The position numbers were made by a program, and so were the translations under genes. Of a stretch of DNA of 64,000 nucleotides, positions 2,036 to 53,774 are shown piece by piece. Where the stretch lies: positions 1-64,000 of the IMG/VR virus record IMGVR_UViG_3300044630_003601. The stretch is one strand, 5' to 3'. Each line of letters starts with the position of its first letter. Within the stretch, counting starts at the first letter, position 1. The notes under the pieces are model-generated. The model saw nothing but the letters and a program-made list of their open reading frames with translations. It made no database searches and was not told where the DNA came from. Source of the stretch: a virus.

Positions 2036-2038
2036 AAG

Positions 2039-2293: not shown

Positions 2294-2306
2294 AGTAACA
2301 TTTTAA

Positions 2307-2329: not shown

Positions 2330-2418
2330 CCACAAAATAAATTTTAAAAAATAATTGGGGAAAAATATTTTTTTATTCAAATAAAACTTCTTTACTTTGT
2401 TCTTCAACCAAAATTTTT

Positions 2419-2616: not shown

Positions 2617-2626
2617 TTATAAAAAA

Positions 2627-30708: not shown

Positions 30709-31196
30709 GGAAATCATTACTTAGCGCCAGTATGAAGAAAGGGCTTCAAAGCGCAATTCAGGCTGAATTATACCAGTCTAACCTTTGGAAGCACTTAGCT
30801 AACCAATTGCAAAGATTAGGCTTTTTTGGAAGCCAAAAGTACTTTTTAGCTGAAAGCGCTGAAGAGTTAACCCATTACCAAATTATTGTTGAATTTATCA
30901 ATGATATGGGCGATGTTGCAAGTGTACCTTCTATTGAAGCCATTACCGATAAAGTAGAATCAATTGGGGATGCATTAGAGATAGGTTACGAAACCGAGCT
31001 TGATGTATTAAATCAGTACAAAAAGATCTATAAGCAAGCCGAAGAAGAAGATTGCGCAGTTGCTATATTCTTACAACAGTTTATTACTATTCAGGTAAAG
31101 GCTGTGGGTCAATATGGTGATTTATTGGCTAAATATAAAATAGCTGAAGAAACAAAAGAAATTTTGGAATTTGACCAACATATTGCAGACGTTTAA
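30702..31196 (+). CDS. ferritin with complete ferroxidase site
   Basis: A 164-residue four-helix-bundle protein that aligns without gaps over its first half with bacterial non-haem ferritin (FtnA). The spacing of ligands is exact: E22, E55 and H58 (E-x-x-H in ESAEELTH), then E99 and Q131, corresponding to FtnA E17, E50, H53, E94 and Q127. The G-F-F-G turn at 40-43 matches the G-F-S-G turn of FtnA. It should oxidise Fe(II) and store ferric iron in a 24-mer, or act as a smaller iron-binding protein. It is encoded between two giant internal virion proteins, overlapping the upstream one by 7 bases, so it is co-expressed with late virion genes. Whether it is packaged in the virion is unknown. Confidence 0.85.
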   Translation: MLGKSLLSASMKKGLQSAIQAELYQSNLWKHLANQLQRLGFFGSQKYFLAESAEELTHYQIIVEFINDMGDVASVPSIEAITDKVESIGDALEIGYETELDVLNQYKKIYKQAEEEDCAVAIFLQQFITIQVKAVGQYGDLLAKYKIAEETKEILEFDQHIADV

Positions 31197-36885: not shown

Positions 36886-39800
36886 TTGGCAATACAGAAT
36901 TTAATAACAGGTGAATTTCAGATCAGGAAATTAAATGGAGTTCTTGTAGCTACCAATGGTATCGTTGATGCGGTTGGTAATATTACATCTGGAACATCTG
37001 GATCAAGTGGTACTAGCGGCACATCAGGCACAAGTGGAACTTCTGGTTTTGCTGGTACAAGTGCCATGTTAGTTTATACATTCATAGCAAATGAAGGTCA
37101 AACTACTTTTTTTATTCCTAGTGGATATGTTAATGGTATGCTTGGTGTATTTGTTAATGGTGTTAAATTATCACCATTAGATTTTACATCATTAGATGGT
37201 TTTAATGTAATTTTAAATACACCTGTTACCGTAGGGGATATTGTAGAAATAGATAATTTTGTTGCTAATTATGTTTCTACTTCAGGAACTTCTGGAACTT
37301 CTGGTATTTCTGGTTCTTCAGGTACTACTGGAACATCGGGTTCTTCTGGTACTTCAGGTACATCAGGTTCTTCTGGAACATCTGGAACATCGGGTTCTTC
37401 TGGAACAACTGGAACTTCAGGAACTTCAGGAACAGCAGGTTCTTCTGGTTTAAGTGGGGATAGATATTTTACTACATCCAACACTACATTTACTTTAGGT
37501 AATTCTGGAACTTTGATTGTAGGGACAAATTTATCATTTAGTCCTGCGCAATCAATAGTCATTGTTTACGATAATACAAACTTCCAAGAGTGTGAAGTTA
37601 TTTCATATAATTCAACAACTGGGCAATTGCAATTTGCAGAACCCAATAGAACAGTTGGTTCGGGTACTTATTCTAACTGGTCAGTTAACTTAGATGGTGC
37701 ATCAGGTACATCAGGAACTTCAGGTACATCAGGAACATCAGCGACTTCAGGTACATCTGGAACTTCAGGTAGTTCTGGTTCAAGTGCTACAAGCGGTACG
37801 GCTGGAACTTCTGGTAGCTCTGGCACAACCGGTACGTCTGGCACAACTGGGACCTCTGGAACTTCTGGTACATCAGGCACAACTGGGACATCTGGAACTT
37901 CTGCAACCGATGGCACAAGTGGCAGTTCTGGTACGACAGGAACTTCAGGTACGACAGGAACTTCAGGTACAACCGGCACTTCAGGTACGTCAGGTACATC
38001 AGGTACTTCTGCAATAGATGGCACTAGCGGTACTTCTGGCACAACCGGTACATCAGGAACTAGTGGCACTTCGGGGACGACTGGCACATCTGGTACAAGC
38101 GGAACGGCAGGTACATCAGGTATAAATGGTATGAATGGGGTTGCAGGGGGTCTTGTGTACTATCTAAATCAATCTTTAAATACAGATACTGCGTTTGGCA
38201 CTCCAACATATAAGCAATGGTCGTCAATTCCAACGGGAGGCGCAGAGCAATCGGTAGCATTAAATAATGTACCCAACAACACAAGAACTCTTATTGCTAC
38301 TTATGCGACTGATTCAGGAGTACCTAATGTCACCACAATACCTTCAGGTTTATGGGCGTGGACAACACATTTTGACATAAACCATAATTGTGATTTAGCG
38401 GTAGATGTTGAACTTTACAAATATACAACAGGCGGAGTATCAACACTTTTAGGTACTACTAACATAGATACTGAACCAGTATCGTCAAATACTATTAAAG
38501 AATTTTTTACTGATTTATTTTTAATATCACAATCTTTAAACGCTACCGATAGACTTTATTGCAAAATATATGTTCTGCATAATCATGGTGGGAATGCTAA
38601 TATAAATTTTTATACTGAAGGAATAAGTAATTACTCTTTTGCACAAACAACATTCAATCCACCAAGTGGTACGTCTGGTACTTCAGGTACTTCAGGAATA
38701 GATGGAACTTCTGGATCTAATGGTACAAGCGGTACTTCTGGCACATCTGGTACTTCAGGTACAAGCGGTACTTCAGGAACTTCAGGTGAAAATGGTACAA
38801 GCGGTAGTTCTGGAACTTCAGGTTCTAGCGGAACTACGGGTACTTCAGGAACAACAGGTACTTCAGGAACAACAGGGACTTCAGGTACATCAGGTGAAAA
38901 TGGTACAAATGGCACATCCGGGACAACAGGTACTTCTGGATCAAGTGGTACTTCTGGTTCTACAGGGACAAGCGGAACATCTGGTACTTCTGGTGCTACT
39001 GGTTCTACAGGGACAAGCGGAACTTCCGGGACGAGTGGAGCTACTGGTTCTACTGGTACAAGCGGAACTTCTGGAACAAGCGGAGTTACCGGGTCTAGTG
39101 GTACTTCTGGAACAAGTGGTGCTAATGGTGGTAATGGGACAAATGGTACATCAGGTACAAGTGGTGCTAATGGTACAAACGGAACTTCAGGAAGTAGTGG
39201 AGTATCTCCATCTGTATCAGGGTATTTACCTTTGACTGGTGGTACACTTACTGGACCGCTTGTTATCGGAACAACAGGTTTAGCAAATAGCCCTTCATTA
39301 AGAATAAACACTTCATCTTCTTTACCTTTTGTACATACTCAAGAAAATTTTGCAGCAAATCTTACAGCAGGCCAAAGAGCTATGATATTCTTTGGTAAAG
39401 AAGGTAGCACTAAGAATGCTGGTGCCATTGGGTATTATTGGGCAGCGGCAGCCTCTAATAATAATTTTATAACATTAGGACATTGGGGAAATGATGATCT
39501 TTTAAGAATATACGGGGACGCTGCAGTTCAAACAACTGGCTATTTAAGAACAGCGGGTGTCACTTCAAATACAGTATTATTTACAAGTGGAACAAGTAGT
39601 GTTGATTTTGGTAATGCTCTTGGACAAGGTACTGCAAGTAGAAGTACATTTTTTAGAGGCAATACAAATAATGTTTCTGTATGGTGGGGTGGTATTGATG
39701 CTAATGGGGCTAATATCCCATTTGGAGCAATAGACGCAGTAGCTGGTGAGTTTAATTTTTGGAGAAATAGTGGTGGACTTGGTGGTGGAACATGGACAAA

Positions 39801-41490
39801 TACTATGACCATGAATTCATCTGGTCTTACTATGAATTCAGGAAACTTTATTGGTAATTTAACAGGAACAGCAAGTTCTGCAACTTCTGCAACTTCTGCA
39901 ACATACTTAGGAAGCGGAGGGTATATTTTTAGAGGAGGATTTAGTGGTAATTGTAATACAGATTTTCAAAACACCCCAGCAGGAAGTTATAGATATAATG
40001 GAGACAATCCCTCTGATGTAAATAATCCGGGAGGTACTTGGTGGTTTATTGAAAACTTTAGACATAGTAACGCAAGTAATTTCTGGGGTACACAAGTAGC
40101 ATGGGGATGGGAAGATAATGCTAATAGATTAGCTACAAGAAATATTACTGGTAATAGTTTTGGAGGTTGGGTTTATTATATGAATACGGCAGCTTATCCA
40201 TTTGCTGCTAATATGAATCAGAATGTTAGAACTTCTGATTCACCAACATTTAGTTCAGTTTATACCAATGACTGGATTAGAATGAATACAATTTTAGGAT
40301 TGATTTGTCCGGGAACTAATAATGCTCAACTTTATGCAAATAATGGTTCATATGGGGCATGGAAAATAGAAGGTTCTAGAAATAGTTACGGTGGTATAGA
40401 AGTGGGAGGTTTAAGTAATGGAAATATTTCTTGGATGGTAAATCTAAGTTCAAACACAACTGGTTTCAATAATCATTCTTATGGGTGGCAGTTTTATTGG
40501 CAAAGTGGTATTTTATATGTTGGAAAAGCTACATATGGTGGAGGTACTATAGCTACTGTTTTTGATACTTCAAATTATACATCTTTTCTAGATGCCCCTA
40601 ATAAAGCAGGAACATCTTATTATCAGACAAATACATGGTTGCAGCTTAATGGAGAATATGGTCTATACTGTCCATCAATAAATAATGCTCACTTTTATCC
40701 AAATACTAGAAGCTATGGCGCATGGAAAGTATTAGGAGAAAGAAACGGATGGAGAGGATTACATTTTGGCGAAGGATCAGGAATAACGCTAATGATGAAT
40801 GAAGGCGAGTTTGGGTTTCATAGAGAAAGTGTAGGCTGGGTGGGTAGATTTACTAGCGGAAGATATTATGGGACATCTGATAATACTGTTAGTATATCAA
40901 GTGCGGTAGGTGGTGGTTATACATGGACAGGAATTCAATATTTTGAAACAAATAACGGAGGTAGATGCGGCAGCACAAATAGTGCAAAATTACAAGCTTA
41001 CTCATCAGGTAATAACTCAGCGTTTATGTCTTTTCATAAAGGCGGTTACTATGCTGTTAATATGGGTTTAGATGATGATAACGTACTTAGAATTGGAGGT
41101 TGGAGTGCAGGGGCTAATTTATTTCAAATGGACATGGCAGGCAACCTTACAATGGCTGGAAATATTTGCGCTTATTCTGATTCTAGAGTAAAAGAAAATG
41201 TAAAAACAATAGAAAATGCTTTATCAAAAGTATTAAACCTAAGAGGTGTAAGCTATAATAGAACTGACTCTGATGATAAAAATACACAAATTGGCGTAAT
41301 TGCTCAAGAAACTTTACCTATTGTTCCAGAGGTAGTTAATATGGATAACAACGGAATGTATAATGTTGCTTATGGAAATTTTGGTGGATTATTTATTGAA
41401 GCTTTCAAAGAACAACAAGCTGAAATTAAAGAACAAAAAGCTCAAATTCAAGAACTTAAAAAATTAGTTAACCAATTATTAAGTAAATAA
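36886..41490 (+). CDS. long tail fibre with Gly-Thr-Ser triplet repeats and S74 chaperone domain, 1534 aa
   Basis: Starts at TTG in the context ACATTGGCA, as the portal does. Order: short N-terminal domain, GTS repeats, a fibre module (GYVNGMLGVFVNGVKLSPLD), repeats, a ~90-residue module (TFTLGNSGTLIVGTN, then VGSGTYSNWSVNLDG), a long repeat block, a Trp-rich domain, another repeat block (to about residue 774), several Gly/Trp-rich modules, and a C-terminal peptidase S74 intramolecular chaperone (SDSRVKENVKTI with the catalytic Ser-Lys pair, then IGVIAQE and a trimeric coiled coil). The Gly-X-Y repeats should form a collagen-like trimeric shaft rich in Ser/Thr. S74 trims itself after folding. 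Host receptor binding is the likely role. Confidence 0.85.
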   Translation: MAIQNLITGEFQIRKLNGVLVATNGIVDAVGNITSGTSGSSGTSGTSGTSGTSGFAGTSAMLVYTFIANEGQTTFFIPSGYVNGMLGVFVNGVKLSPLDFTSLDGFNVILNTPVTVGDIVEIDNFVANYVSTSGTSGTSGISGSSGTTGTSGSSGTSGTSGSSGTSGTSGSSGTTGTSGTSGTAGSSGLSGDRYFTTSNTTFTLGNSGTLIVGTNLSFSPAQSIVIVYDNTNFQECEVISYNSTTGQLQFAEPNRTVGSGTYSNWSVNLDGASGTSGTSGTSGTSATSGTSGTSGSSGSSATSGTAGTSGSSGTTGTSGTTGTSGTSGTSGTTGTSGTSATDGTSGSSGTTGTSGTTGTSGTTGTSGTSGTSGTSAIDGTSGTSGTTGTSGTSGTSGTTGTSGTSGTAGTSGINGMNGVAGGLVYYLNQSLNTDTAFGTPTYKQWSSIPTGGAEQSVALNNVPNNTRTLIATYATDSGVPNVTTIPSGLWAWTTHFDINHNCDLAVDVELYKYTTGGVSTLLGTTNIDTEPVSSNTIKEFFTDLFLISQSLNATDRLYCKIYVLHNHGGNANINFYTEGISNYSFAQTTFNPPSGTSGTSGTSGIDGTSGSNGTSGTSGTSGTSGTSGTSGTSGENGTSGSSGTSGSSGTTGTSGTTGTSGTTGTSGTSGENGTNGTSGTTGTSGSSGTSGSTGTSGTSGTSGATGSTGTSGTSGTSGATGSTGTSGTSGTSGVTGSSGTSGTSGANGGNGTNGTSGTSGANGTNGTSGSSGVSPSVSGYLPLTGGTLTGPLVIGTTGLANSPSLRINTSSSLPFVHTQENFAANLTAGQRAMIFFGKEGSTKNAGAIGYYWAAAASNNNFITLGHWGNDDLLRIYGDAAVQTTGYLRTAGVTSNTVLFTSGTSSVDFGNALGQGTASRSTFFRGNTNNVSVWWGGIDANGANIPFGAIDAVAGEFNFWRNSGGLGGGTWTNTMTMNSSGLTMNSGNFIGNLTGTASSATSATSATYLGSGGYIFRGGFSGNCNTDFQNTPAGSYRYNGDNPSDVNNPGGTWWFIENFRHSNASNFWGTQVAWGWEDNANRLATRNITGNSFGGWVYYMNTAAYPFAANMNQNVRTSDSPTFSSVYTNDWIRMNTILGLICPGTNNAQLYANNGSYGAWKIEGSRNSYGGIEVGGLSNGNISWMVNLSSNTTGFNNHSYGWQFYWQSGILYVGKATYGGGTIATVFDTSNYTSFLDAPNKAGTSYYQTNTWLQLNGEYGLYCPSINNAHFYPNTRSYGAWKVLGERNGWRGLHFGEGSGITLMMNEGEFGFHRESVGWVGRFTSGRYYGTSDNTVSISSAVGGGYTWTGIQYFETNNGGRCGSTNSAKLQAYSSGNNSAFMSFHKGGYYAVNMGLDDDNVLRIGGWSAGANLFQMDMAGNLTMAGNICAYSDSRVKENVKTIENALSKVLNLRGVSYNRTDSDDKNTQIGVIAQETLPIVPEVVNMDNNGMYNVAYGNFGGLFIEAFKEQQAEIKEQKAQIQELKKLVNQLLSK
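37279..37454 (+). repeat. GTS triplet-repeat block (shaft) in the long fibre
   Basis: About 58 codons of G-T-S / G-S-S / G-T-T triplets. Codons are varied at the third position, which argues against recent simple slippage and for selection on the protein sequence. Confidence 0.9.
37699..38118 (+). repeat. Longest uninterrupted GTS triplet-repeat block
   Basis: Gly-Thr-Ser triplets with occasional A-T, T-D-G and I-D-G breaks. The antisense strand is open across it and would read (V/E)-P-x repeats, a by-product of the codon pattern. Confidence 0.9.
38665..39207 (+). repeat. Second long GTS triplet-repeat block, with Asn- and Ala-containing units
   Basis: Triplets GTS, GSS, GTT mixed with GEN, GTN, GAT and GAN units. 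GATGST repeats three times at DNA level (around 38995-39055), pointing to unequal recombination within the block. Confidence 0.9.
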
Positions 41491-42054: not shown

Positions 42055-42441
42055 ATGAAAACAATTGAACCAGTACAAGTTTGGTATAATGGCCAAGAAG
42101 TAAATGCAACAGTATTAAATGCATACGCAACAAATGTAGAATTAAATGTTTCTGCTAGTTTTTATTACACTTTATATAGTGTAAATCAATACAACACTAT
42201 ATATCAAGTAAATGGTGGAGTATTAAAAATGGAAGGTCAAGCTTACCAAGATTGGGATCAAGATACTTTTGCTTGGGATTGGGTAGCTGCTCAGCTTAAT
42301 TTAACAATTACAGGCGAGTATATACCACCTATTCCACCAACACCATTCCCAACAACACCAACAACAACAGCATCTCCTACAACTACTACAACAGAAGCGC
42401 CAACAACTACAACAACAACAGAATCAACGCCAATAGCATAA
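42055..42441 (+). CDS. Thr-tailed appendage protein, 128 aa
   Basis: Residues 1-98 form a beta domain with Trp/Tyr-rich strands (QVWYNGQEVNATVLNAYA, FAWDWVAAQLNLTITGEY). A PPIPPTPFP segment starts a Thr/Pro/Glu tail (three Thr runs, TEAPTTTTTTES) to the C-terminus. The same small-domain-plus-Thr-tail design recurs from 6734 through the head and hub genes. Probably displayed on the fibre or tail. Confidence 0.7.
   Translation: MKTIEPVQVWYNGQEVNATVLNAYATNVELNVSASFYYTLYSVNQYNTIYQVNGGVLKMEGQAYQDWDQDTFAWDWVAAQLNLTITGEYIPPIPPTPFPTTPTTTASPTTTTTEAPTTTTTTESTPIA
42358..42440 (+). repeat. Poly-Thr tail repeat
   Basis: ACA/ACT codons interrupted by Ala-Ser-Pro and Glu-Ala-Pro. Confidence 0.85.
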
Positions 42442-42451: not shown

Positions 42452-44290
42452 ATGACTAAAAATACAATTTTAAGCGAATTACCTAATATTGATGGTATAA
42501 TTAAAGGAAACTTAGATGCTAACTTTAGCACAGCAGTTCCTGACGTTGACTACCAATTGCCATTAAGTCTTACGACAAATGGCGTTAGTGGACCATCTAC
42601 ATTTAGTGGTAATGTATTGAATGTGCCTATTTATAGCTCATCTTCTGGTACAGCTGGTAGTTCTGGTACGTCAGGTAGTTCTGGTACATCGGGTAGTTCT
42701 GGTAGTTCTGGTACAACAGGGACTTCAGGGACTAGTGGCACATCGGGTTCAAGTGGTAATACTGGTTCAAGTGGTACAAGTGGTACATCGGGATATGCGG
42801 GGGATAAGTATTATACTACTTCAACAACTTCTTTTACTTTAGGCAATAGTGGTACGATAACAGTACAGACAGCATTGGCATATACAATTGGTCAAACTAT
42901 CCTTATTGTATATAATATTACAAATTATCAAGAATCAGTAGTTACAGCGTATGATCCTATTACGGGATCTCTTTCATTTGGCGCTCCGGTAATCACAGTT
43001 GGTTCAGGTACTTATGCAGCATGGATTGTAAACTTAGCTGGTGCTAGTGGTGGTGATGGTAGTTCTGGTTCTTCAGGTACTTCAGGTAGTTCTGGTAGTT
43101 CTGGTGCTACGGGTACTTCAGGAAGTAATGGTACATCAGGATCATCTGGTACCACAGGAACTTCAGGGAGTTCAGGGTCTAGTGGAATTAACGGGACTAG
43201 TGGTACTACAGGTACATCAGGATCATCTGGTATTTCAGGTAGTTCAGGAACTACAGGAACTTCTGGAACTTCTGGTACGAGAGGTACTTCAGGTACGACA
43301 GGTACTTCGGGTACTTCCGGTACATCCGGAGCAGTTGGTGGCAATGGTACTTCAGGCACATCAGGTACCACAGGAACGTCTGGAACTTCAGGAACATCAG
43401 GTACCACAGGAACGTCTGGAACTTCTGGAACATCAGGCACTTCTGGTACATCAGGAGTAAATGGTGGAAATGGTAGTTCAGGTACTTCAGGCACATCAGG
43501 TACGACTGGAACATCAGGTACTTCTGTAACTGTTTCAGGTACTACAAATTGTTTAGCTAAATTTACATCAGCTACCACTATAGGTAATAGTATTATTTTT
43601 GCTGATACTACAAAAGTGGAAGTTGCAGGAGCGGAAGATGATTGTTTTAGAATATTTTCAGTACAACCTTTCCCATCAATTCGTGCCACAGGGGCATCAA
43701 ACACAGCAGGACTTCAAATACATCCAACAACAGGATTTGATGCAGCTATAGGCAACTATAATGGTGGAAGCTTAAACTTAGTTGCAGCTGGTAATACAAT
43801 TGTACAAGTAACTAATACTGTGGGGGTTATTTTTTATGTAGGAAGTCATGGACCAATAGCAGCATATGGTAATAATACTAGCGCATACAATATATACGTT
43901 AATTCATCTTCAGGTAATAAAACATGGGATATATCCATGTTTGGAAATGATTGGTATTTAAATGAAAGTAATATTAACGTAAGATTAAAAGTATTAGCAG
44001 GGGGAGGAGTTTATGCAGATGCATTTTATGAATTTTCAGATAAAAGATTTAAAACATTAGTTAAAGAAAATCCTATATTTTCTGGCATAGAATCAATCAC
44101 TGCAAAAAGTTATATAAAAGAAGGCAAAGAAGAATTAGGTTATTTTGCTCAAGATTTTGAAGGAGTTTTAGATAGTGCGATTCTTAAAGATAAAGATGAT
44201 GTTTTAAGTTTATCTTATCGTCAAGTTCATACAGCTAAAATAGCTGCTTTAGAAAAACGTATTGCTGAATTAGAAGCTAAATTAAAATAA
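42452..44290 (+). CDS. second GTS-repeat tail fibre with S74 domain, 612 aa
   Basis: A shorter relative of the long fibre. An N-terminal ~60-residue domain, GTS repeats (about 64-116), a module (FTLGNSGTITVQTALAYT, then VGSGTYAAWIVNLAGASG) clearly homologous to the one in the long fibre, a second repeat block (about 198-360), a beta domain, and a C-terminal S74 chaperone (EFSDKRFKTLVKENP with Ser/Lys, LGYFAQDFEG, and a closing coiled coil AALEKRIAELEAKLK). It is likely a self-cleaving trimeric fibre. It may bind a different receptor or cap the first fibre. Confidence 0.83.
   Translation: MTKNTILSELPNIDGIIKGNLDANFSTAVPDVDYQLPLSLTTNGVSGPSTFSGNVLNVPIYSSSSGTAGSSGTSGSSGTSGSSGSSGTTGTSGTSGTSGSSGNTGSSGTSGTSGYAGDKYYTTSTTSFTLGNSGTITVQTALAYTIGQTILIVYNITNYQESVVTAYDPITGSLSFGAPVITVGSGTYAAWIVNLAGASGGDGSSGSSGTSGSSGSSGATGTSGSNGTSGSSGTTGTSGSSGSSGINGTSGTTGTSGSSGISGSSGTTGTSGTSGTRGTSGTTGTSGTSGTSGAVGGNGTSGTSGTTGTSGTSGTSGTTGTSGTSGTSGTSGTSGVNGGNGSSGTSGTSGTTGTSGTSVTVSGTTNCLAKFTSATTIGNSIIFADTTKVEVAGAEDDCFRIFSVQPFPSIRATGASNTAGLQIHPTTGFDAAIGNYNGGSLNLVAAGNTIVQVTNTVGVIFYVGSHGPIAAYGNNTSAYNIYVNSSSGNKTWDISMFGNDWYLNESNINVRLKVLAGGGVYADAFYEFSDKRFKTLVKENPIFSGIESITAKSYIKEGKEELGYFAQDFEGVLDSAILKDKDDVLSLSYRQVHTAKIAALEKRIAELEAKLK
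42640..42797 (+). repeat. GTS triplet-repeat block 1 of the second fibre
   Basis: About 52 codons of GTS/GSS/GTT/GNT triplets upstream of the module shared with the long fibre. Confidence 0.88.
43040..43531 (+). repeat. GTS triplet-repeat block 2 of the second fibre
   Basis: Triplet repeats downstream of the shared module, with internal DNA repeats such as GGTACCACAGGAACGTCTGG occurring twice around 43363-43413. Confidence 0.88.
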
Positions 44291-46479
44291 TGAGTTGGAA
44301 ATCTATATCTGGAAATCAAACTGTATCTAGAGCAAATTTGCAAAATGCTATAGATACCGGTGTTTTTGTAGTAAAAAACGGGGTGCCTGCAACAGAGCCT
44401 AATAGAGGAGTAACAAAAGCCAATGTAGAAGATTATATTAATGTATGGAGCTTATATCCTCCTTTTAGGAATAAAGCACCAAATCAACTTCCTGTTAAAT
44501 CTAATCTTGCTGTACAGTCTAATCAAATATATGGTGGTACAGACACTAGGATATATGTTGGAAATACTAATAGAAATTGGGTATATAGCATAGATTTTGC
44601 TGGTGGAGATAGTATTGGTTCAGTCGCTTCTTCTACAGATAATAGATGTATATTATATGGTAAGTCTTATGATCCCGGAGCTGGTGGTGGTGGCGCTCAC
44701 GTGTCTAATGATTACGGAGAAACTTTTAGAAGGTTAGATGACGTGATGTCAACTAATGATGCATGTTTAGCAACTGCTATGAGCAGTGATGGTGAATTAA
44801 TGATTTTAACAAGGCAGGTTGGTTCATTTGATGCTGATAGAGCAAAAATATATATTTCATACAATTCAGGGGCAACATGGACTATAGCTTATAATGCAGG
44901 AGGGGTAAGATATAACTTTAACGGAGCTGCAATGTCTGGAAATGGAGGGTATATTACAGTATTAGGTTGTGATGGTGTATACTATTATGTATTTACGTCT
45001 AATAATTTTGGAGCAAGTTTTACTAGAACGTATTTTATCGTTGGAAGCAAAACTTTAGTTACAGGGTGTGTTGGTATGTCTAAATCAGGACAATATCAAT
45101 TAGTAGCTCCACCAGAACCATCTGGCTCTTTTTTGGGTTATTTTTATGTTTCAAATGATTATGGAAATAGTTGGACAGGTGTTACACTCCCAGATATACC
45201 ATTAGCTCCAAATGATATTTTTAAAGGATGTTCTGTTTCAGCAGGTGGTGATTACATGACAGTAGTTGCTTACTCTCTTACATTAGGTCAACTTAGAACT
45301 TATATCTCAAGTGATTGGGGAGTTAATTGGACTATTGTATCTGGTGGAAATATTGCTCAGGCTGTAGATAGTTCTGGTCAATTTCAATATCAAAGCGGAC
45401 GTGCATCTCAAAATTATGGAAATACGTGGTTTAATACAGGATTTTTTGGAAAGTCTATTTCTGTAAATCCAACAACATTTACAACCCCATACACTTACGG
45501 AACATCTACTGGTGGAAATTTATACAAATCTGTTGATCAAGGAAGTAGTTTTAGCTTAATATCTATATCTGGGTATTTTACTAAAGTTGCTACTTCTGGT
45601 GGCTCAAATAATGGTAAGTATGTAGCTGCTATTAAAGATAATGATCCCGGCGGATTCCCTAACTATAATCTTTACCAATCTTATGATTATGGGGCAACAT
45701 GGAACACAATTCTGTCTTTTGGTGGACAAGTATTAAGTTGTTGCGCTGTATCTGATGATGGAGTTTATTGGTTTGCTGCTGCATATGATGGACCATCAAA
45801 CGGTACATTCATATATAGATCTACTGATTCAGGAGTGACTTGGAGCTATGTGTATGCTGTTACTGGTCGGGCAGGAAACTGTGCTATGTCAAATACTGGG
45901 CAATATATAAGCATGGTGGTAAATAATGCTGATCGCCCTGGTCTTTACAATTCATTTTTAGCTAGCTCTAATGATTATGGGTTGAACTGGGCAGGGCAAG
46001 CTTTTAACAATACAGGAAGAACATTCGTTGATATTGCTATGTCTGGACAAGGTAGATTTAGAACACTTGTAAGTTCAGATTCTGGGGATGGTGGTGCTAG
46101 AATTTCTTATTCAACACAGTATGGTGTAGGTTTTAGTGACGTATTTCTTTTAGAATATTTTTATGCTACTTCATGTTCTATGGATGATTCTGGTCGTGTG
46201 GCAGTGGTATCATTTACGGGAGGGCAAATACCATTAGCCACAACTAGTAGAATATATTCTACAACAAATGGATGGGGTAGTATAAACACTTACAATACCG
46301 ATATATATCCCGGACCATTATTACCACCAACCATAAGCGGGGTAAATGTTTCTTCAGATGGAACATATTGGTCTGCAGTATCAAGTAATGCCGGGGGGTA
46401 TTCATTTACTTGCACTACTGGAGATGGGAATTTTGTTCCTAATATTACAGGAATAACCTTTAATAATTTATCAAAATAA
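44290..46479 (+). CDS. Asp-box (BNR) beta-propeller tail protein, 729 aa
   Basis: After an N-terminal ~60-residue helical attachment domain (SISGNQTVSRANLQNAIDTG) the protein contains many Asp-box motifs S-x-D-x-G-x-x-W/F: SNDYGETF, SYNSGATW, SNDYGNSW, SSDWGVNW, SYDYGATW, STDSGVTW and SNDYGLNW, separated by roughly 40-90 residues. That is the signature of sialidase/sortilin-type beta-propellers. It could be a receptor-binding spike or a glycan-degrading depolymerase. I could not identify a sialidase Arg triad, so enzymatic activity is open. The start overlaps the stop of the second fibre (TAATG). Confidence 0.75.
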   Translation: MSWKSISGNQTVSRANLQNAIDTGVFVVKNGVPATEPNRGVTKANVEDYINVWSLYPPFRNKAPNQLPVKSNLAVQSNQIYGGTDTRIYVGNTNRNWVYSIDFAGGDSIGSVASSTDNRCILYGKSYDPGAGGGGAHVSNDYGETFRRLDDVMSTNDACLATAMSSDGELMILTRQVGSFDADRAKIYISYNSGATWTIAYNAGGVRYNFNGAAMSGNGGYITVLGCDGVYYYVFTSNNFGASFTRTYFIVGSKTLVTGCVGMSKSGQYQLVAPPEPSGSFLGYFYVSNDYGNSWTGVTLPDIPLAPNDIFKGCSVSAGGDYMTVVAYSLTLGQLRTYISSDWGVNWTIVSGGNIAQAVDSSGQFQYQSGRASQNYGNTWFNTGFFGKSISVNPTTFTTPYTYGTSTGGNLYKSVDQGSSFSLISISGYFTKVATSGGSNNGKYVAAIKDNDPGGFPNYNLYQSYDYGATWNTILSFGGQVLSCCAVSDDGVYWFAAAYDGPSNGTFIYRSTDSGVTWSYVYAVTGRAGNCAMSNTGQYISMVVNNADRPGLYNSFLASSNDYGLNWAGQAFNNTGRTFVDIAMSGQGRFRTLVSSDSGDGGARISYSTQYGVGFSDVFLLEYFYATSCSMDDSGRVAVVSFTGGQIPLATTSRIYSTTNGWGSINTYNTDIYPGPLLPPTISGVNVSSDGTYWSAVSSNAGGYSFTCTTGDGNFVPNITGITFNNLSK

Positions 46480-46872: not shown

Positions 46873-46893
46873 AGCAGCTAAAAAGCTGCTTTT
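46873..46893. terminator. Bidirectional terminator at the fibre/glycosyltransferase junction
   Basis: AGCAGCT and AGCTGCT flank an AAAA loop. T-rich runs follow the stem in both directions (TTTATTTTTT rightward, TTTTTT leftward after CTC). The stop codon of the leftward glycosyltransferase lies inside the hairpin. Confidence 0.82.
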
Positions 46894-49800
46894 ATTTTTT
46901 CTATAACCATTTGAGCTGTTATTGATTTATGACATTCAAAGTGTTTGTCAGTGCCTTTATGTTTGCACCAATTCCAATCTCCCTTATCAAATATAATCCC
47001 ATTTTCATTCCAACAGCTATTACAAACATTGGTATTTGTTATTCTAATGCAGTCTAATTGGAATTCGTGATCAGCAGAAGTGAAATTGCTTATCATAATT
47101 ACTTTCTTTTTTAAAGCCCAAGCAAGCCAGCTCAACCCACTAGAAAGCCCAATGAAGAATTCACTATTTAGTATTACATCAATTGTGTTTTCTATTGAGG
47201 TATCAGATATTTTAGTGCAATTATCAAATGGGTTATCCTCTTTAGATACGTTTATTACAGCATATCCTTCATCGTGTAAATAATTAATTACCTCTTGCCA
47301 TCCTTCCCTAGTCCAAAACTTGCATCCAGATGTTGAATTAGTGGCTATAGTAACATATTTGCCATTAATCTTGCTTTTATTCCTAATCTTCAACATTGGT
47401 CTTATTTCTTTAAATTCAAGACCTAGTATGTTTGTAGCTGCTTTTTGTAGTGGGATAGTATTTGGGACTTCTGGTTCTTTATCGCTGTTGTAAAACCATC
47501 CTAATCTATACGAAGCATGAATATTATCTACTACATTACCCGGCTCTACTAATTCCAATTCGGGATAGTCCAGTATTTTATTCCAAAAAGTGGACAATAT
47601 AACCTTGCATTGATGTAGCTTTTGAAATTCTAAAGCATAGGGAACCCAAGCTAATGTATCTCCCAATGATTTACTTTCTATAACAATAAATACTCTTTTG
47701 TTATTTAAGTGCAAGAAATTTGCATATATCATTTCATTACCTTCCCAAACTTTGGTTGTCCAATTTGTAAAGTATGTTCTATTTAATTTTACCCAAGTGT
47801 TTGAATTTATTATATTTTCGTAAATAATACTACCATTCCCATCAAAAAATTGAACTTTAAATTTACTATCTACATTGCCTTTGATTTCTAGAAATGGATT
47901 GTCAACAAAGTGCTGAGAAATAGATACTTTTTGCTTTTGAATAGGTAATTCAATTATTTTTTTATAAGCATCTTCTTGTCTAAAAGCAAATATAGGAGTG
48001 GTATTGTCTGTAGGTACTTCGTAATTGCATTCTAAGGTATTTAAATCGCTATCAATTGGCTGTAGGTAGTCTGTAAACATATCTCCATATTGAGGCAAAT
48101 TTCTAGCTATAATAGGCAATCCGTAGCTAATGGCTTCCCTCAAAACTAAGGGATTACATTCCCAAGTGCTATTGAACATAAATATATCAGCCATCTCCAT
48201 AAAAGTATCTATGTCTTTCCTTTCCCCCCAAACTTTAACATTACTAGGCAAATCTTTCATCAATGGTTCCCAATAATCCTTAAAGTTCCCAGCTTGATTG
48301 CCAACAAAATGAAATGTCATATTAGGGTATTTACGCGCAATTTCAATGCCTTCACCTTGATTTTTACCACTAGTCCATAACCCTACATTTAAAACATGTT
48401 TTCCATCTTTTACTGCATTAACTTCTTTTTTATCTATCGGATATTCTATTGTAACAAATGTAGATTCCATATTAGCAAAAGTTTCCTCATGATATGGAGA
48501 ACAGAATATATATGAATCTGGATGAAATATCTTTTCTTTATCAGGATCAAAAGATACGTCATGGCAAGTTTCTGCAATTCTATATTTTCTATTTGTGTTA
48601 TAAAGTTGTTTTATCATCTCCCTATCTAATCTTTCTGATGGCTCATCTATGTGTATTAAATCGGGCTTCCATTTATCAATTACTTTGAATAACTCCATTT
48701 TATCTTCGTATAAAGTAGTAAAGTTCTCTCCTAGTAAACTTTTTATCTTATCTCTTTGAACCACAAAATCTAAGCTATAGCATTGATATTCAACAACATA
48801 TATTTCACAATCAGTATAATCTTTAAGAGCTTCAATTCTTTTTAGTAAAAACTGGGGCATCCCGCCTGTGCTTAAATGTGGGGCTAGGTAAAGTATTCTC
48901 ATTTTCTTTTCTCCAATAAACAAGTTTATCTTGTCTATATTTTTTTCTCCATGATAAAATAATAAATCTTCTTTCTTTGCGGGTATTCTAAGCCAGTTGC
49001 CATCTATTCTGGCTTCTCCTGTAAATTCTAAATTATTATGTAATCCATTAACATATATACAAGGCAAGCCGTTAAAAACGAGTCTTTTGTATAGCAATAC
49101 GTTCATTATTGTTTCTTCGTGATATGGCGCATACCATTCATGATTTGCTAGTATTTTGGGGTGGTTGCACATCCAATACCATTCGTCCAAGAAGTCTATT
49201 GTTTTTTGCCCAGCAACATAATACCCCGTTTGCCTATATCTTTCCCTCACATATTGGTTTATACCAAATAAATCACAAGCTGGATGCTCTAACGTAGTGC
49301 TTAAATCATCTCTGCTATCGGCTCCACCACGACCATTTATATGCAAATAGTCATATACCCCTTCTACAAAATAAGGACAAGTTGAATTATAGTCATAAAA
49401 ATCAAAAATCCTATCTACGTAAGGACTTGCAACAGAATCAGTATCAATGTAAGCTACTGTGTCTGCGTAATTGATTAAAGCATCTTTTGTAATCTTGGGT
49501 CTTTCTATAAGGAGCTTGTAAATATCTTTGTCTGCTCTGTCTATATAATCTTTCCTTTTAACCGAATTTTTTACATCACAATCCCATCTTATTGTTATGG
49601 TGTTTTCTACTTCTACTTTATTGTCCGAATTAAGCATGTAAACGTAAATAGGATAAGTGCTAAAATTTCTAATGGAACGACAACAAGCATCCACAAGATC
49701 AAAATAGGAATCGTCAGCATAAAGGACGTAAGCTTTTTCATGTTCGTGTTTTTTTTTATTCAAAAATATATCATTTTCACGTCTATCAATATTGTAGATA

Positions 49801-50348
49801 TTTTGTATTTTTAATAGAATATTGTCTATTGCCTCTTTATTTGATATTTCATTGCACTCAAATTCTATAGTATCTGCAAGCAATTTAGGGTTAATGTTGC
49901 ATTGGTTTAAATATGACTCAAGTATAATGTGGTCATGCCCTTCGGTATCTATTTTAAGGTGTGTAATGCCTTCTATATTAAACATATCAACAAGAGAATA
50001 CCAATCCATCTTAATTACTCTTGTTTTTGTCACTATTTTATCATATAAATCTTTCCCTATCTTATTTATAACATATTCATGTGGTTTATCTACACTATTG
50101 CATCCTCTAACCCAATATGGTAGATTATTTTCTATTATTTTATCTTCTTCTATGTGGTATATATCTATAAATCCGCTATATTCAGATATAGCAGCATTGA
50201 CTTTAGTGACATTTTTTTTATCTGGGAGCCTGTCTAGATAGAATTTTATTGGTTCTATACTTAATCCAATGGTATTATCATCTGCATTTTCAATAAGAGT
50301 ATCAAAATCAGATGTACCTATTTCTATGAAATCGTAGTGTTTACCCAT
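46878..50348 (-). CDS. four-domain FkbM methyltransferase / glycosyltransferase / BAHT-like O-heptosyltransferase, 1156 aa
   Basis: Four enzyme domains in one chain. (1) 1-~200: FkbM-type SAM methyltransferase (VIKMDWYSLVDMF, HLKIDTEGHDHIILES). (2) ~203-480: GT-A-like glycosyltransferase with a DxD motif in YIDTDSVASPYVDR. (3) from M483: GT-B (GT4-like) transferase, MRILYLAPHLSTGG through FMFNSTWECNPLVLREAISY. (4) ~885-1156: GT9-like domain of the bacterial autotransporter heptosyltransferase (BAHT/TibC) kind, with SLGDTLAWVPYALEF, FIGLSSGLSWLAWAL, and the four-Cys iron-finger pattern CNSCW, WNWCKHKG, FECHKSI. TibC-family enzymes O-glycosylate Ser in repeat adhesins. The gene lies beside GTS-repeat fibres, which are natural substrates. 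M483 might serve as an internal start. Confidence 0.82.
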   Translation of the reverse strand: MGKHYDFIEIGTSDFDTLIENADDNTIGLSIEPIKFYLDRLPDKKNVTKVNAAISEYSGFIDIYHIEEDKIIENNLPYWVRGCNSVDKPHEYVINKIGKDLYDKIVTKTRVIKMDWYSLVDMFNIEGITHLKIDTEGHDHIILESYLNQCNINPKLLADTIEFECNEISNKEAIDNILLKIQNIYNIDRRENDIFLNKKKHEHEKAYVLYADDSYFDLVDACCRSIRNFSTYPIYVYMLNSDNKVEVENTITIRWDCDVKNSVKRKDYIDRADKDIYKLLIERPKITKDALINYADTVAYIDTDSVASPYVDRIFDFYDYNSTCPYFVEGVYDYLHINGRGGADSRDDLSTTLEHPACDLFGINQYVRERYRQTGYYVAGQKTIDFLDEWYWMCNHPKILANHEWYAPYHEETIMNVLLYKRLVFNGLPCIYVNGLHNNLEFTGEARIDGNWLRIPAKKEDLLFYHGEKNIDKINLFIGEKKMRILYLAPHLSTGGMPQFLLKRIEALKDYTDCEIYVVEYQCYSLDFVVQRDKIKSLLGENFTTLYEDKMELFKVIDKWKPDLIHIDEPSERLDREMIKQLYNTNRKYRIAETCHDVSFDPDKEKIFHPDSYIFCSPYHEETFANMESTFVTIEYPIDKKEVNAVKDGKHVLNVGLWTSGKNQGEGIEIARKYPNMTFHFVGNQAGNFKDYWEPLMKDLPSNVKVWGERKDIDTFMEMADIFMFNSTWECNPLVLREAISYGLPIIARNLPQYGDMFTDYLQPIDSDLNTLECNYEVPTDNTTPIFAFRQEDAYKKIIELPIQKQKVSISQHFVDNPFLEIKGNVDSKFKVQFFDGNGSIIYENIINSNTWVKLNRTYFTNWTTKVWEGNEMIYANFLHLNNKRVFIVIESKSLGDTLAWVPYALEFQKLHQCKVILSTFWNKILDYPELELVEPGNVVDNIHASYRLGWFYNSDKEPEVPNTIPLQKAATNILGLEFKEIRPMLKIRNKSKINGKYVTIATNSTSGCKFWTREGWQEVINYLHDEGYAVINVSKEDNPFDNCTKISDTSIENTIDVILNSEFFIGLSSGLSWLAWALKKKVIMISNFTSADHEFQLDCIRITNTNVCNSCWNENGIIFDKGDWNWCKHKGTDKHFECHKSITAQMVIEKIKAAF

Positions 50349-50349
50349 A

Positions 50350-50862
50350 TTATTTTTTTCTTATGTAATAGCCATAAACCTCATTACCATAAATAAGCTC
50401 TAAATCAGGGTATCTTTCTTTAACTAAGTCTGGTGTTAAGTCTGGTTGCAGATGAGTTTCATAGGTATTGCCTTCATATTCACCTTGCTCATATTGGTAT
50501 GGTACTGCAACAAGATATTCTTTGCCCGTTGATTTTAAAAAATTCATAAACCATTGTGCATCTTCCACTGAAAAATGTTCTAAAACATCCCCTAAAATAT
50601 AAAAATCATATCCTTTTAGTGCATTTAGCGGCATGTTAAAAACATTTTCTTTATAAACCACATTATACTTGTTTTTTAAATCATATTGTATAATATATGG
50701 CTCCCATATTTCAACTGCATCCATTTTATAATCATACCCTTTTAATAAATCAGAGTATGTACCGCATCCTGCTCCAATATCTAAAATTTTAGCATCAAAA
50801 GGTATGTTTTCTACGAACCAATTTCTTACTGAATCTTTGTAATAAGGATAACTACTTGGCAT
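50350..50862 (-). CDS. class I SAM-dependent methyltransferase, 170 aa
   Basis: I chose the ATG at 50862. An upstream in-frame TTG at 50880 would overlap the -7 box. Motif I is ILDIGAGCGTY (26-36), an acidic residue follows in MDAVEIWEP, and motif IV-like LGDVLEHF is present. The small size and EHF motif suit sugar- or small-molecule methyltransferases of glycan clusters. It is one base upstream of the four-domain glycosyltransferase, so it probably methylates the same glycan. Confidence 0.8.
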   Translation of the reverse strand: MPSSYPYYKDSVRNWFVENIPFDAKILDIGAGCGTYSDLLKGYDYKMDAVEIWEPYIIQYDLKNKYNVVYKENVFNMPLNALKGYDFYILGDVLEHFSVEDAQWFMNFLKSTGKEYLVAVPYQYEQGEYEGNTYETHLQPDLTPDLVKERYPDLELIYGNEVYGYYIRKK

Positions 50863-50877
50863 ATTATGTATTTTTGA

Positions 50878-50910
50878 CAAAACTATGTATTTTTTTTAAT
50901 TAAATTAAAT
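50878..50910. promoter_or_regulatory. Divergent regulatory region of the sugar cluster
   Basis: Leftward: TAGTTTTG (50885-50878), a TAnnTTTG box 16 bases before the ATG at 50862. Rightward: a 14/16 match to the AT 16-mer at 50895-50910, followed by TACCTTTA (50928-50935), the same variant box as at 61265, but only 4 bases from the ATG at 50940. It probably coordinates both arms of the cluster. Confidence 0.5.
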
Positions 50911-50939
50911 AATTAATAAATAAATATTACCTTTACCCC

Positions 50940-51317
50940 ATGAAAATAGAAGTAAGTATCGGTGAAGTAGTAGATAAATATACTATTCTAACTATAAAAA
51001 AGCTATTCATCCATGATAATGAAAAGCTAGTAAACATAGAAAAAGAGTGGAAAATAATCAAGTCTGCTCTATTAAAAAAATACCCAGAAACACTAACAGA
51101 ACCCTTTACCCAAGAGCTTTATGACATAAACAAAAAGCTATGGAAAGTGGAAGATGATTTAAGGGATTGCGAGCATAAGAACTATTTTGGCGAAAAGTTT
51201 GTTGAATTAGCAAGGGAAGTTTACCAATTAAATGATGTTAGGGCTATAATAAAAAAACAAATTAATCAAAAGTATGGCTCTGAATTAATAGAAGAAAAAT
51301 CATATAAACAACACTAA
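50940..51317 (+). CDS. DUF6165-family protein, 125 aa
   Basis: The start MKIEVSIGEVVDKYTILTIK, the middle DINKKLWKVEDDLRDCE and the ending KYGSELIEEKSYK are the pattern I know as DUF6165, small helical proteins that sit beside glycosyltransferases and surface-glycan genes in bacteria and phages. No activity is established. Here it opens the rightward arm of the cluster, three bases before a glycosyltransferase-like gene. Confidence 0.75.
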   Translation: MKIEVSIGEVVDKYTILTIKKLFIHDNEKLVNIEKEWKIIKSALLKKYPETLTEPFTQELYDINKKLWKVEDDLRDCEHKNYFGEKFVELAREVYQLNDVRAIIKKQINQKYGSELIEEKSYKQH

Positions 51318-51320
51318 TTT

Positions 51321-52253
51321 ATGAAGAACATCAGATTTGTCTGCGCGCAACCCACCTCTATATTTTATGCTTGGCAAATAGAAGTTATGATTAATAACTT
51401 TATAGAAATGGGTATAAACCCAAATAGCATTGATATTGTATCTTGGAAAGTGAACAATGTAATTCCTGAAGAATGGTTAAAACTAGCTAATGCATATCCT
51501 GTTAGGTTCTTCTTTTATGATGATACTAGAGTTACAACACATTACATATCTTCTATCCGTCCTAATATATTGAAGCAGCATTTTGCAGCTCACCCTGAAT
51601 TAGAAGAAGAAGCAATTCTTTACCATGATTGCGATATTGTATTGACAAAACCAATAAATTGGGAACAATTTTTGGAAGATGAAAAATGGTATGGATCTGA
51701 TACTAGATGGTATATAGCGCATAGTTACATATTAAGCAAAGGTCAAGATGTTTTAGATAAAATGTGTGAAATAGTTGGTATTGAAGAATCAATTATTAAA
51801 GACAACGAGCTTAATTCAATTGGCGCACAATACTTAATGAAAGGTATAAATGCTGAATTTTGGGCTAATGTAGAAAAAGATTGTGAGAGATTATATAATG
51901 AAATAACAATGTTGAATAACATTAAAAAGGCTGAAAATAACCAATATCATGAATTACAAATATGGTGCGCAGACATGTGGGCAGTTCTTTGGAATGGCTG
52001 GAAATTGGGCAAAGAAACTGTTTGCCATCCAGATTTAGAATTTGCTTGGGGAACTAGCACCGAAAGCGATTTTGACAGATTAAATATATTGCATAATGCC
52101 GGTGTCGTTAGCTCTGCTGATGGTTTATTTTATAAAGCAGAATTTATGAATAGATTACCTTACAATCTAAATTTAAATATCAAAGAAGGAACGGCATCAA
52201 AAAAGTATTATGAAATTATACAAAAAGTAGAAAAAAAATCAGTTTTAATATGA
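51321..52253 (+). CDS. glycosyltransferase-like (GT-A) protein, 310 aa
   Basis: An alpha/beta protein with a DxD-type motif in ILYHDCDIVLTKPI (about 99-112), which in GT-A enzymes binds metal and the nucleotide-sugar phosphates. FVCAQPTSIFYAWQIEVMI at the N-terminus and HELQIWCADMWAVLWNGWKLG in the C-terminal half resemble a group of phage/bacterial transferases related to hydroxyproline-arabinosyltransferase-like proteins. The sugar and acceptor are unknown. Its stop overlaps the next start (ATGA). Confidence 0.7.
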   Translation: MKNIRFVCAQPTSIFYAWQIEVMINNFIEMGINPNSIDIVSWKVNNVIPEEWLKLANAYPVRFFFYDDTRVTTHYISSIRPNILKQHFAAHPELEEEAILYHDCDIVLTKPINWEQFLEDEKWYGSDTRWYIAHSYILSKGQDVLDKMCEIVGIEESIIKDNELNSIGAQYLMKGINAEFWANVEKDCERLYNEITMLNNIKKAENNQYHELQIWCADMWAVLWNGWKLGKETVCHPDLEFAWGTSTESDFDRLNILHNAGVVSSADGLFYKAEFMNRLPYNLNLNIKEGTASKKYYEIIQKVEKKSVLI

Positions 52254-52906
52254 AAATCCCAGCTTTTATAATCAATTATAATAGATTAACATTACCTAAA
52301 AATATGGCTGAGTTTTTGTCCAAAAACGAAAATGTAGATGTATATATAATAGATAACAATAGCACTTATCAACCTTTATTAGATTGGTATGCTACATGCC
52401 CTTATAAGATTATTCACATGGATAAAAATTATGGACATACGGTTTTTTGGAATAAAAAATTATATGATATTTATGTTAAAGAAGGATATTATATTTTATC
52501 TGATCCAGATTTAGATTTATCTGAAATACCGGAAGATTGGTTAGATGTGCTACTAAATGGATTAGCTAAATATCAATATAATAAAATAGGCTTTTCATTG
52601 AAAACAAGCGATTTACCAGAATCGGTTTTTAGAAATCAAATAATTGATTGGGAAAGTCAATTTTGTACCCCAAAAGCTAAATATCTTGATGATTTATATA
52701 CAGAAGCACATATTGATACTACCTTTGCCTTACATAGAACAGATGAGCATGCATTATATTCTTCAGTCAGAGTAAATCATCCTTATACTGCAAAACACGT
52801 GCCTTGGTATTATACAGATTTTCAACTTTTACCAGAAGATGAAAAATTTTATTTTAAAAATATAAAAACAGATACTTTTTGGAGTAATCAATTCAATGTA
52901 AGATAA
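52250..52906 (+). CDS. GT2-like glycosyltransferase, 218 aa
   Basis: A compact GT-A fold: PAFIINYNRLTLPKNM (N-terminal strand and helix), IIDNNSTYQPLLDWY (nucleotide-binding DNxS motif), and YYILSDPDLDLSEIPEDW (DxD-type metal site). At 218 residues it is near the minimum for the fold and lacks a C-terminal extension. Part of the four-gene arm 50940-53774. The substrate cannot be read from sequence. Confidence 0.75.
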   Translation: MKIPAFIINYNRLTLPKNMAEFLSKNENVDVYIIDNNSTYQPLLDWYATCPYKIIHMDKNYGHTVFWNKKLYDIYVKEGYYILSDPDLDLSEIPEDWLDVLLNGLAKYQYNKIGFSLKTSDLPESVFRNQIIDWESQFCTPKAKYLDDLYTEAHIDTTFALHRTDEHALYSSVRVNHPYTAKHVPWYYTDFQLLPEDEKFYFKNIKTDTFWSNQFNVR

Positions 52907-52907
52907 T

Positions 52908-53774
52908 ATGTTAAAAATTATAAAAGCTACCTATGGTGGCGCAGATTGTTCCGATGAATTACGAGGTTTAATGGTATCTGGTAAATTAGTAGTTAGAGCA
53001 AACAATAAGATAATAGGAGATCCCTCTTTAGGCATTGTTAAGTACCTAGAAGTTGAATTTAGCGATGGACACAAAGAGAAAGTAATGGAAGGAAATACTT
53101 TAGTCTATCCCAAGTCTAAAACCCGAAAATTGGGCATATTCTATTCAAATAATAACAATCATGAGATATGGCCTGCAATATATAAATCAATAGATACGAT
53201 TAAAGAAGCAAGTGAAGGGGTAGCAGAAATTGTGGTATGTACTTGGGAGCATATGCCTGACGTACCATTTCAACAAATAAAAAGCTGGTACACTAAACAA
53301 TCCCATCTTAATCAATTACTACAAATTATGCAGTGTCTTTATACTGCTAAGAATATGGGACAATACGACTATGTTTCTTTCCTTGAACATGATGTAATGT
53401 ATCCAAAGGGATATTTTGATTTCCCTGATTTCCCGAATGGGCAGGTGCTTACAAATATGAACTACGGGGGCGTATGTAAAAATGGGTGGCAAAAAAGAAA
53501 CCAACACGATCAACCATTTCACCAAATGACCATGCGCTTTGATGATGCAATTGAACATTGCTTAACTATATTGCCTAATGCATTAGTTACAAATAGCGGA
53601 ATGATTGAAACACAAAAGCTAACAAGGACTCAATGGAACTGCGAAAACGAGGCAGTACATATAAATCATGGAGTTCATTTTACTAGCCATAATTCTATTT
53701 ATGATAAAGACAATTTAACACAATTACACCCATATTGGGGCGAACATAATAAATATAAAAATTTATTTATATGA
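52908..53774 (+). CDS. glycosyltransferase-like protein with N-terminal beta domain, 288 aa
   Basis: Residues 1-67 (IIKATYGGADCSDELRGLMV, then VEFSDGHKEKVMEGNTLVYP) form a small beta domain I have seen fused to various phage and bacterial enzymes. Residues ~72-288 look like a GT-A-like transferase with YDYVSFLEHDVMYPKGYF as the acidic motif and a conserved His-rich end (HINHGVHFTSHNSIYD). The C-terminal TQLHPYWGEH may bind metal. Activity is inferred from motif and cluster. Confidence 0.62.
   Translation: MLKIIKATYGGADCSDELRGLMVSGKLVVRANNKIIGDPSLGIVKYLEVEFSDGHKEKVMEGNTLVYPKSKTRKLGIFYSNNNNHEIWPAIYKSIDTIKEASEGVAEIVVCTWEHMPDVPFQQIKSWYTKQSHLNQLLQIMQCLYTAKNMGQYDYVSFLEHDVMYPKGYFDFPDFPNGQVLTNMNYGGVCKNGWQKRNQHDQPFHQMTMRFDDAIEHCLTILPNALVTNSGMIETQKLTRTQWNCENEAVHINHGVHFTSHNSIYDKDNLTQLHPYWGEHNKYKNLFI

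Follow-up and report, generated by a model that had tools for sequence, protein, structure and literature searches.

A phage-borne TibC-like O-glycosyltransferase and its association with proline-free collagen-like fibres

Domain organization of the 1156-residue protein

The stretch of viral DNA analysed here (the window, 64,000 nucleotides) comprises nearly the whole of the 65.1-kb virus record IMGVR_UViG_3300044630_003601 and encodes a multi-domain protein of 1156 residues, as well as two fibres with collagen-like tracts of Gly-Thr-Ser (GTS) and similar triplets (Table 1). The C-terminal domain of the large protein belongs to the TibC family of protein O-glycosyltransferases, and genes for such domains (here called tibC) are strongly and specifically associated with GTS proteins, in viral contigs as well as on bacterial chromosomes.

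Residues 827-1153 match TIGR04414 (Aah/TibC) with 255.6 bits, above the NCBIfam equivalog cut-off of 200, and a Pfam scan of the whole protein also placed a heptosyltransferase-type domain in the C-terminal region. By sequence, the closest solved structures are those of TibC, 4rap (E 1.2e-44) and 4rb4, the pair having E-values of about 1e-44. TibC chains of these two entries were also the top Foldseek matches of the AlphaFold2 model in the PDB (E about 1e-29), with a template modelling (TM) score of 0.82-0.84 normalised to TibC and a root-mean-square deviation of about 2.1 A for most chains. A TibC-family domain at this end of the protein had been proposed earlier from the DNA letters alone (the original prediction), and the proposal is borne out by these results. 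That prediction did not separate out the two further glycosyltransferase (GT) domains of the same protein. One of them is of the GT4 (GT-B) type and has BshA, PimA and PglA as structural matches in Foldseek. The other has a GT-A fold, is modelled with a predicted local distance difference test score of 92.6, and matches GT-A enzymes of the blood-group and UGGT type (Foldseek E 1e-7, TM-score about 0.5-0.67); it carries an invariant DxD pair (D103/D105 in domain numbering) and HGEK at the C terminus. Sequence searches with this domain gave nothing convincing, and it is recognised by fold alone. The AlphaFold2 model of the large protein is good from residue 200 and poor over residues 1-199, where a weak FkbM-like methyltransferase match is located. 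Whether the protein could form a dodecameric ring, as TibC does, is uncertain because about 800 residues are fused N-terminally to the TibC-like domain.

Active site of the TibC-like domain

Key residues of TibC include Asp110 (the catalytic base), Thr226 and Lys230 (phosphate), Trp305 (heptose O4), Pro300 (stereoselectivity) and Arg286, which contacts adenine N1 and is required for activity, while Cys339, Cys342, Cys358 and Cys370 bind iron (PMC4358343). The window protein keeps D, T, K and W at the positions of Asp110, Thr226, Lys230 and Trp305, and the catalytic Asp shows no variation across 39 viral sequences. The four-Cys iron finger named in the original prediction is present, its cysteines being invariant and aligned to those of TibC; absence of the TibC fold or of the catalytic Asp had been put forward as grounds for abandoning the idea, and both were found to be present. 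There are two departures from the key residues of TibC, Arg286 to Thr and Pro300 to Ser; AAH likewise carries Ser at TibC position 300 (PMC4358343).

GTS fibres and poly-Thr proteins of the window

Fibre 1 contains 135 Gly-x-y triplets, equal to 26% of its 1534 residues, and fibre 2 contains 72, or 35% of 612 residues, so that the earlier description of the fibres as consisting mostly of GTS triplets was too strong. The triplets are chiefly GTS, GSS and GTT, and the tracts lack Pro. Their codons are mixed, which argues that the repeat is maintained at the protein level. The fibres had also been placed directly beside tibC, but a BNR/sortilin-like gene and a gene for 111 residues intervene.

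Stretches of poly-Thr, which frequently read TTTTTTAAPTTTTTT, occur in six window proteins, just as had been noted. Runs of ten Thr were found in 3 of 15 TibC-positive and 0 of 14 TibC-negative relatives of the window phage (counted with a T10 pattern; shorter runs were not surveyed). Poly-Thr linkers were accordingly rejected as an acceptor that tracks TibC, long T10 runs being sporadic among the relatives and not tied to TibC.

Association of TibC with GTS fibres among viruses

A scan for the TibC domain gave 84 related viral contigs, 80 of which were kept (44-91% identity, 41 clusters at 85% identity). When a side was counted only if the contig extended 6 kb or more beyond the gene, and a tract only if it was at most 9 kb away, 42 of 49 loci had a GTS tract 3' of tibC, on the opposite strand every time, and 1 of 57 had one 5'. 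GTS fibres are encoded by 37 of the 39 TibC-positive contigs of at least 50 kb, within the locus stretch in 32 cases and elsewhere in the record in 5. GTS was scored with a Ser/Thr pattern, several genuine fibres having escaped a stricter one that required Thr.

Random control contigs, drawn by an arbitrary 14-mer, had TibC in 0/36 cases (0/11 at 50 kb or more) and GTS in 0/21. Among contigs drawn by the GTS pattern TibC was found in 20 of 60 (16 of 27 at 50 kb or more), compared to 1 of 34 drawn by a Gly-Pro collagen pattern (1 of 15 at 50 kb or more with a real Gly-x-y tract), the difference in TibC rate between Pro-type collagen and GTS contigs being significant (Fisher 0.001). A link of TibC to collagens in general was ruled out by this Pro-type control.

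Relatives of the window phage identified by the capsid gene form two sets, a near one of 84-100% identity and a farther one of 62-76%. Of 16 near relatives represented by contigs of 56 kb or more, 15 have both TibC and GTS, and all 14 farther relatives searched have neither; this split within the capsid family may reflect a single evolutionary event. The lone exception among the near relatives (L216/L217, IMGVR_UViG_3300032323_002596) has the capsid gene twice, inverted, near both ends, and is probably a palindromic assembly artefact. Two farther genomes that were read have unlike large open reading frames (ORFs) at the syntenic fibre position. Large ORFs at the fibre locus of TibC-less relatives (L500:5520-9413 and L502:3147-8093) have Sec signal-like N termini (MKKIFLLLSFFLI and MKKFISIFFLLCFIKG), which is odd for virion fibres.

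The capsid gene of the window phage is absent from 34 of 49 TibC-positive contigs, and several phage lineages are therefore involved. Terminase Pfam families were unusable as a lineage marker (2 matches in 36), and independence rests on the capsid gene, contig sizes and an isolate. Of 50,697 phage records only 4 carry a relative, and one of the four is that of the cultured Microcystis phage Mel-JY01, which infects Microcystis elabens. It encodes, on one strand, a GTS ORF (2-3049, +), a structural gene and then a GT4...TibC fusion gene, the GTS and fusion genes being about 1.7 kb apart. This GTS ORF is open-ended at the start of the record and was apparently overlooked in the deposited annotation (L414, PP395634.1), in which a hypothetical gene (739-2298, -) lies antisense inside it. 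The 735-kb phage LR756501 also has TibC and GTS; LR756503 is a record of equal length.

Bacterial relatives and phylogeny

A plain-sequence scan of bacterial genomes gave no relatives, and a profile-alignment scan of 84,980 species genomes gave 474, of which 80 were kept (at most 42% identity). The cellular relatives closest to the phage domain adjoin GTS proteins, several of which are small and plainly exported. With the signal type judged by eye, those of Methylobacter and further Methylococcaceae have a Sec signal peptide, and those of further Gammaproteobacteria and of Polaromonas are lipobox-like lipoproteins. Examples of these exported proteins are encoded 4-150 bp from tibC. The Methylobacter pair is clearly chromosomal, with dnaK, csiV and flavin adenine dinucleotide/iron-sulphur (FAD/Fe-S) oxidase genes in its flanks; some other loci of metagenome-assembled genomes, in which the GTS ORFs are long, may stem from phage contigs that were put into bacterial bins. 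GTS lipoproteins or secreted proteins beside a stand-alone tibC were seen in Methylobacter at L425:8881-9762, where tibC occupies L425:9803-11101, and at L431, L432, L440, L421, L422, L428 and L429, and such a GTS protein with its stand-alone tibC is probably an undescribed two-gene bacterial surface glycoprotein system.

In a tree of 92 domains (quick build without bootstrap), a well-supported branch, with a Shimodaira-Hasegawa-like approximate likelihood-ratio test (SH-aLRT) value of 98, separates 32 members, TibC included and all without GTS next to them, from all 39 phage sequences together with 21 cellular ones. Of these 21 cellular sequences 18 have a GTS neighbour (18/21 vs. 0/32, Fisher 2e-11). 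One long-branch sequence with a GTS neighbour (L487) falls just outside the branch. Autotransporter neighbours on the classical side carry TIGR04415 in 4/4 tested, with 21-37 repeats each. As the two sides differ in having GTS or TIGR04415 neighbours, the TibC family appears to be split by acceptor type, and one subfamily, seemingly not described before, would be dedicated to collagen-like proteins that lack proline. This family-level pattern, a GTS-dedicated TibC branch in phages and bacteria, is new beyond the original prediction. No prior report of a phage TibC or of the TibC/GTS pairing was found in the open-access literature, subscription journals and preprints being outside the search.

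Proposed function and alternative explanations

Self-glycosylation of the GTS fibre shafts is the best-supported reading of the locus, given the homology, the fold and the TibC/GTS association in unrelated viruses and on chromosomes. We consider it probable that the 1156-residue protein is a multi-domain virion-glycosylation enzyme that acts on the two GTS fibres of its own phage and belongs to a TibC branch, present in phages and on bacterial chromosomes, that is partnered with GTS collagen-like proteins rather than with autotransporters. The notion that the phage decorates both its fibres and its poly-Thr linkers is retained for the GTS shafts; for the linkers the T10 counts give it no support. 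We infer an enzyme-substrate relation behind the association, in which the TibC domain would add the first sugar to Ser/Thr of the proline-free GTS tracts in the host cytoplasm, and the fused GT4 and GT-A domains would lengthen the glycan. A cap could be added by the FkbM-like domain and/or a separate methyltransferase, and fibre assembly would follow glycosylation. From the conserved core, which consists of a methyltransferase, GT-A, GT4 and TibC, the glycan would seem to be short and may carry methyl groups.

Collagen-like tracts without proline are expected to form weak triple helices. By analogy, the favoured role of the glycan would be to stiffen or protect the proline-free shaft, and an alternative role might be that of a shield against antibodies or proteases, as in the available account of mycobacteriophages. 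Glycosylated Thr in the cuticle collagen of Riftia is described as stabilising the triple helix in place of hydroxyproline (Mann et al. 1996, as cited in PMC11766948), and a comparable role is therefore suggested for glycans on GTS tracts; Riftia collagen is an animal collagen, and its likeness to the GTS tracts is by analogy only. A wider proposal is that a TibC subfamily, found in unrelated phages of 65-735 kb and on chromosomes, is devoted to proline-free GTS proteins, that its glycans take over from proline or hydroxyproline in keeping a collagen-type rod together, and that the phage donor is probably not adenosine diphosphate (ADP)-heptose. We hold this combination only tentatively, as somewhat less than an even prospect; if true, phage fibres, and lipoproteins in bacteria, would be coated with sugars.

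Several observations weigh against self-glycosylation of the fibres by this enzyme. In place of Arg286 the window protein has Thr, as do 33 of the 39 viral sequences, and an ADP-heptose donor is therefore not to be assumed; of 62 cellular loci that lack adjoining GTS, 59 retain the Arg, and the position is variable in the GTS-linked cellular set. Nucleotide recognition may thus differ from that of TibC, and "heptosyl" is to be taken as a name only. The TIGR04415 repeat, the known acceptor of the bacterial autotransporter heptosyltransferases (BAHT), is absent in the six window proteins tested, both fibres included. No TibC was found in 11 of 27 GTS-positive contigs of at least 50 kb, some of which could be incomplete records. 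Conversely, the 636-kb phage LR756504 has TibC and the GTS pattern nowhere in its record, and in the TibC-positive viral contig L078 the pattern was not found. Kinship also inflates the contig counts, a concern that the tree and the chromosomal pairs lessen and do not remove.

The cluster might instead alter host surface polysaccharide, leading to superinfection exclusion or receptor masking, with the GTS fibres as mere neighbours in a variable region. This is the standing view of GTs in pelagimyophage host-recognition clusters (PMC7029224), and GT4 and GT-A folds are frequent in lipopolysaccharide synthesis; nevertheless we regard it as unlikely, given that the known acceptors of the TibC family are proteins (PMC4358343), that this enzyme branch also accompanies GTS proteins on chromosomes, outside any phage island, that collagens other than GTS show hardly any link, and that the tracts keep to one side more strictly than a common island would lead one to expect. 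No cluster protein matched T4-type DNA-glucosyltransferase families in Pfam, NCBIfam or PHROGs.

That the enzyme acts on some other virion protein (the poly-Thr linkers, the propeller or the capsid), the GTS link being indirect, would fit the six window proteins with poly-Thr runs, the TibC-positive LR756504 and L078, and the glycosylation of mycobacteriophage capsids and tails as related in PMC11652166. GTS is, however, the feature that tracks TibC over lineages and chromosomes, whereas long Thr runs were seen in just the few TibC-positive relatives mentioned, and this explanation seems to us rather improbable. It is very improbable, in our view, that TibC and GTS merely hitch-hike as one historical fibre-locus cassette in which neither is enzyme or substrate to the other. 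The convergent gene order kept in most viral loci and the co-loss in one family could each be one event, but Mel-JY01 has a different order, with both genes on the same strand, the chromosomal two-gene neighbourhoods occur in both orientations, and the active-site residues apart from Arg286 remain conserved.

Comparison with known systems

The window enzyme shares with TibC and AAH (PMC4358343) the fold, the catalytic Asp, the equivalents of Thr226, Lys230 and Trp305, the four-Cys iron finger and a TIGR04414 score over the cut-off. It differs in being phage-borne and fused to GT4, GT-A and methyltransferase-like domains, in having a GTS collagen-like protein rather than a strand-loop-strand autotransporter (TIGR04415) as neighbour, in the replacement of Arg286 by Thr and in its position on a separate side of the tree. 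The SgtA enzyme of Clostridioides difficile, encoded beside bclA3, glycosylates Thr and Ser of a collagen region (PMC7157674). The two systems, likened here by description, have in common a glycosyltransferase gene near a collagen-like gene and Thr/Ser acceptors, which are presumed ones in the phage, whereas SgtA is a uridine diphosphate N-acetylglucosamine transferase acting in the spore coat on a GPT repeat, which contains proline (PMC7157674). Mimivirus L230 offers a case of a viral enzyme that glycosylates a collagen-like protein of the same virus, but the virus is a eukaryotic giant virus, the acceptor is hydroxylysine and the enzyme is a bifunctional lysyl hydroxylase/glucosyltransferase (PMC4691112). 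A phage enzyme acting on capsid and/or tail proteins and giving an antibody shield is known from mycobacteriophages (Freeman et al. 2023, as cited in PMC11652166), where the citing account, as far as it goes, names neither TibC nor collagen-like fibres.

GTS collagen-like fibres are frequent in environmental phage contigs and their chemistry is unexplained. If they are tied to a dedicated O-glycosyltransferase, virion glycosylation would be a widespread phage trait and the TibC family would have a second acceptor class. The bacterial pair of tibC and a GTS lipoprotein gene, and the cultured phage Mel-JY01, would then be inexpensive test systems, with a bearing on the stability of a collagen-like rod without proline. 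A fresh look would also be due to the many GTs of phage fibre islands that are at present taken to act on the host surface.

Neighbouring genes and other features of the window

Of the 80 viral loci, 78 have a GT4 domain, which 77 of them encode together with TibC in one ORF, and 68 have a GT-A domain. DUF6165 (42 loci), the small methyltransferase (40) and phrog_4417 (37) are found less often, and homologues of the GT2-like gene (7) and of the last ORF in Table 1 (11) are rare. In relatives, homologues of the small methyltransferase are joined to the N terminus of GT-A or of the entire GT-A/GT4/TibC protein. The original prediction had counted three more GT-like genes in the cluster, which did not hold up, one being a sub-threshold GT2 match, one the phrog_4417 protein and one without any match. 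Its DUF6165 gene stands, as does one of its two methyltransferases in the form of the FkbM-like domain of the large protein; the other, a separate gene, scores below the Pfam cut-offs.

Table 1 Features of the window discussed in the text
Feature	Position	Strand	Basis or remark
Multi-domain ORF	46878-50348	-	1156 aa
TibC-like O-glycosyltransferase domain, residues 819-1156	46881..47894	-	TIGR04414, TibC 4rap, Foldseek
Iron-finger Cys 1109, 1112, 1128, 1139 (TibC Cys339/342/358/370)	46932..47024	-	Alignment to TibC
Catalytic Asp codon, residue 897 (TibC Asp110)	47658..47660	-	Alignment to TibC
GT4 (GT-B) domain, about residues 486-800	47949..48893	-	PF00534, 47.6 bits
GT-A-fold domain, residues 200-485	48894..49751	-	Fold and conserved motifs
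FkbM-like methyltransferase domain (weak), residues 1-199	49752..50348	-	PF05050, 25.3 bits, cut-off 22.7
GTS fibre 1, presumed acceptor	36886..41490	+	PF01391, 163 bits; C-terminal S74 chaperone domain PF13884, 52.8 bits
GTS fibre 2, presumed acceptor	42452..44290	+	PF01391 (Collagen), 100.7 bits
Poly-Thr proteins	6734-7063, 12750-13133, 13154-13771, 19913-24052, 24077-24622, 42055-42441		Poly-Thr runs
BNR/sortilin-like gene	44290-46479		Between fibre 2 and tibC gene
111-aa gene			Between fibre 2 and tibC gene, with BNR/sortilin-like gene
Small methyltransferase-like gene	50350..50880	-	PF13489, 19.9 bits, below cut-off
DUF6165 gene	50940..51317	+	PF19662, 48.9 bits, cut-off 27
phrog_4417 protein	51321..52253	+	217 bits; PHROG without assigned function
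Possible GT2-like gene (weak)	52250..52906	+	PF00535, 18.3 bits, cut-off 23.3
ORF without family match	52908..53774	+	Pfam, NCBIfam, PHROGs

The terminase of the window phage has distant kin in Flavobacterium and Cellulophaga phages (28-29% identity). A Cpn10/GroES-like co-chaperonin gene (18864-19136, +; 60 bits) lies among head and tail genes, and a ferritin-like gene (30702-31196, +; PF00210, 66 bits) was found within the structural cassette.

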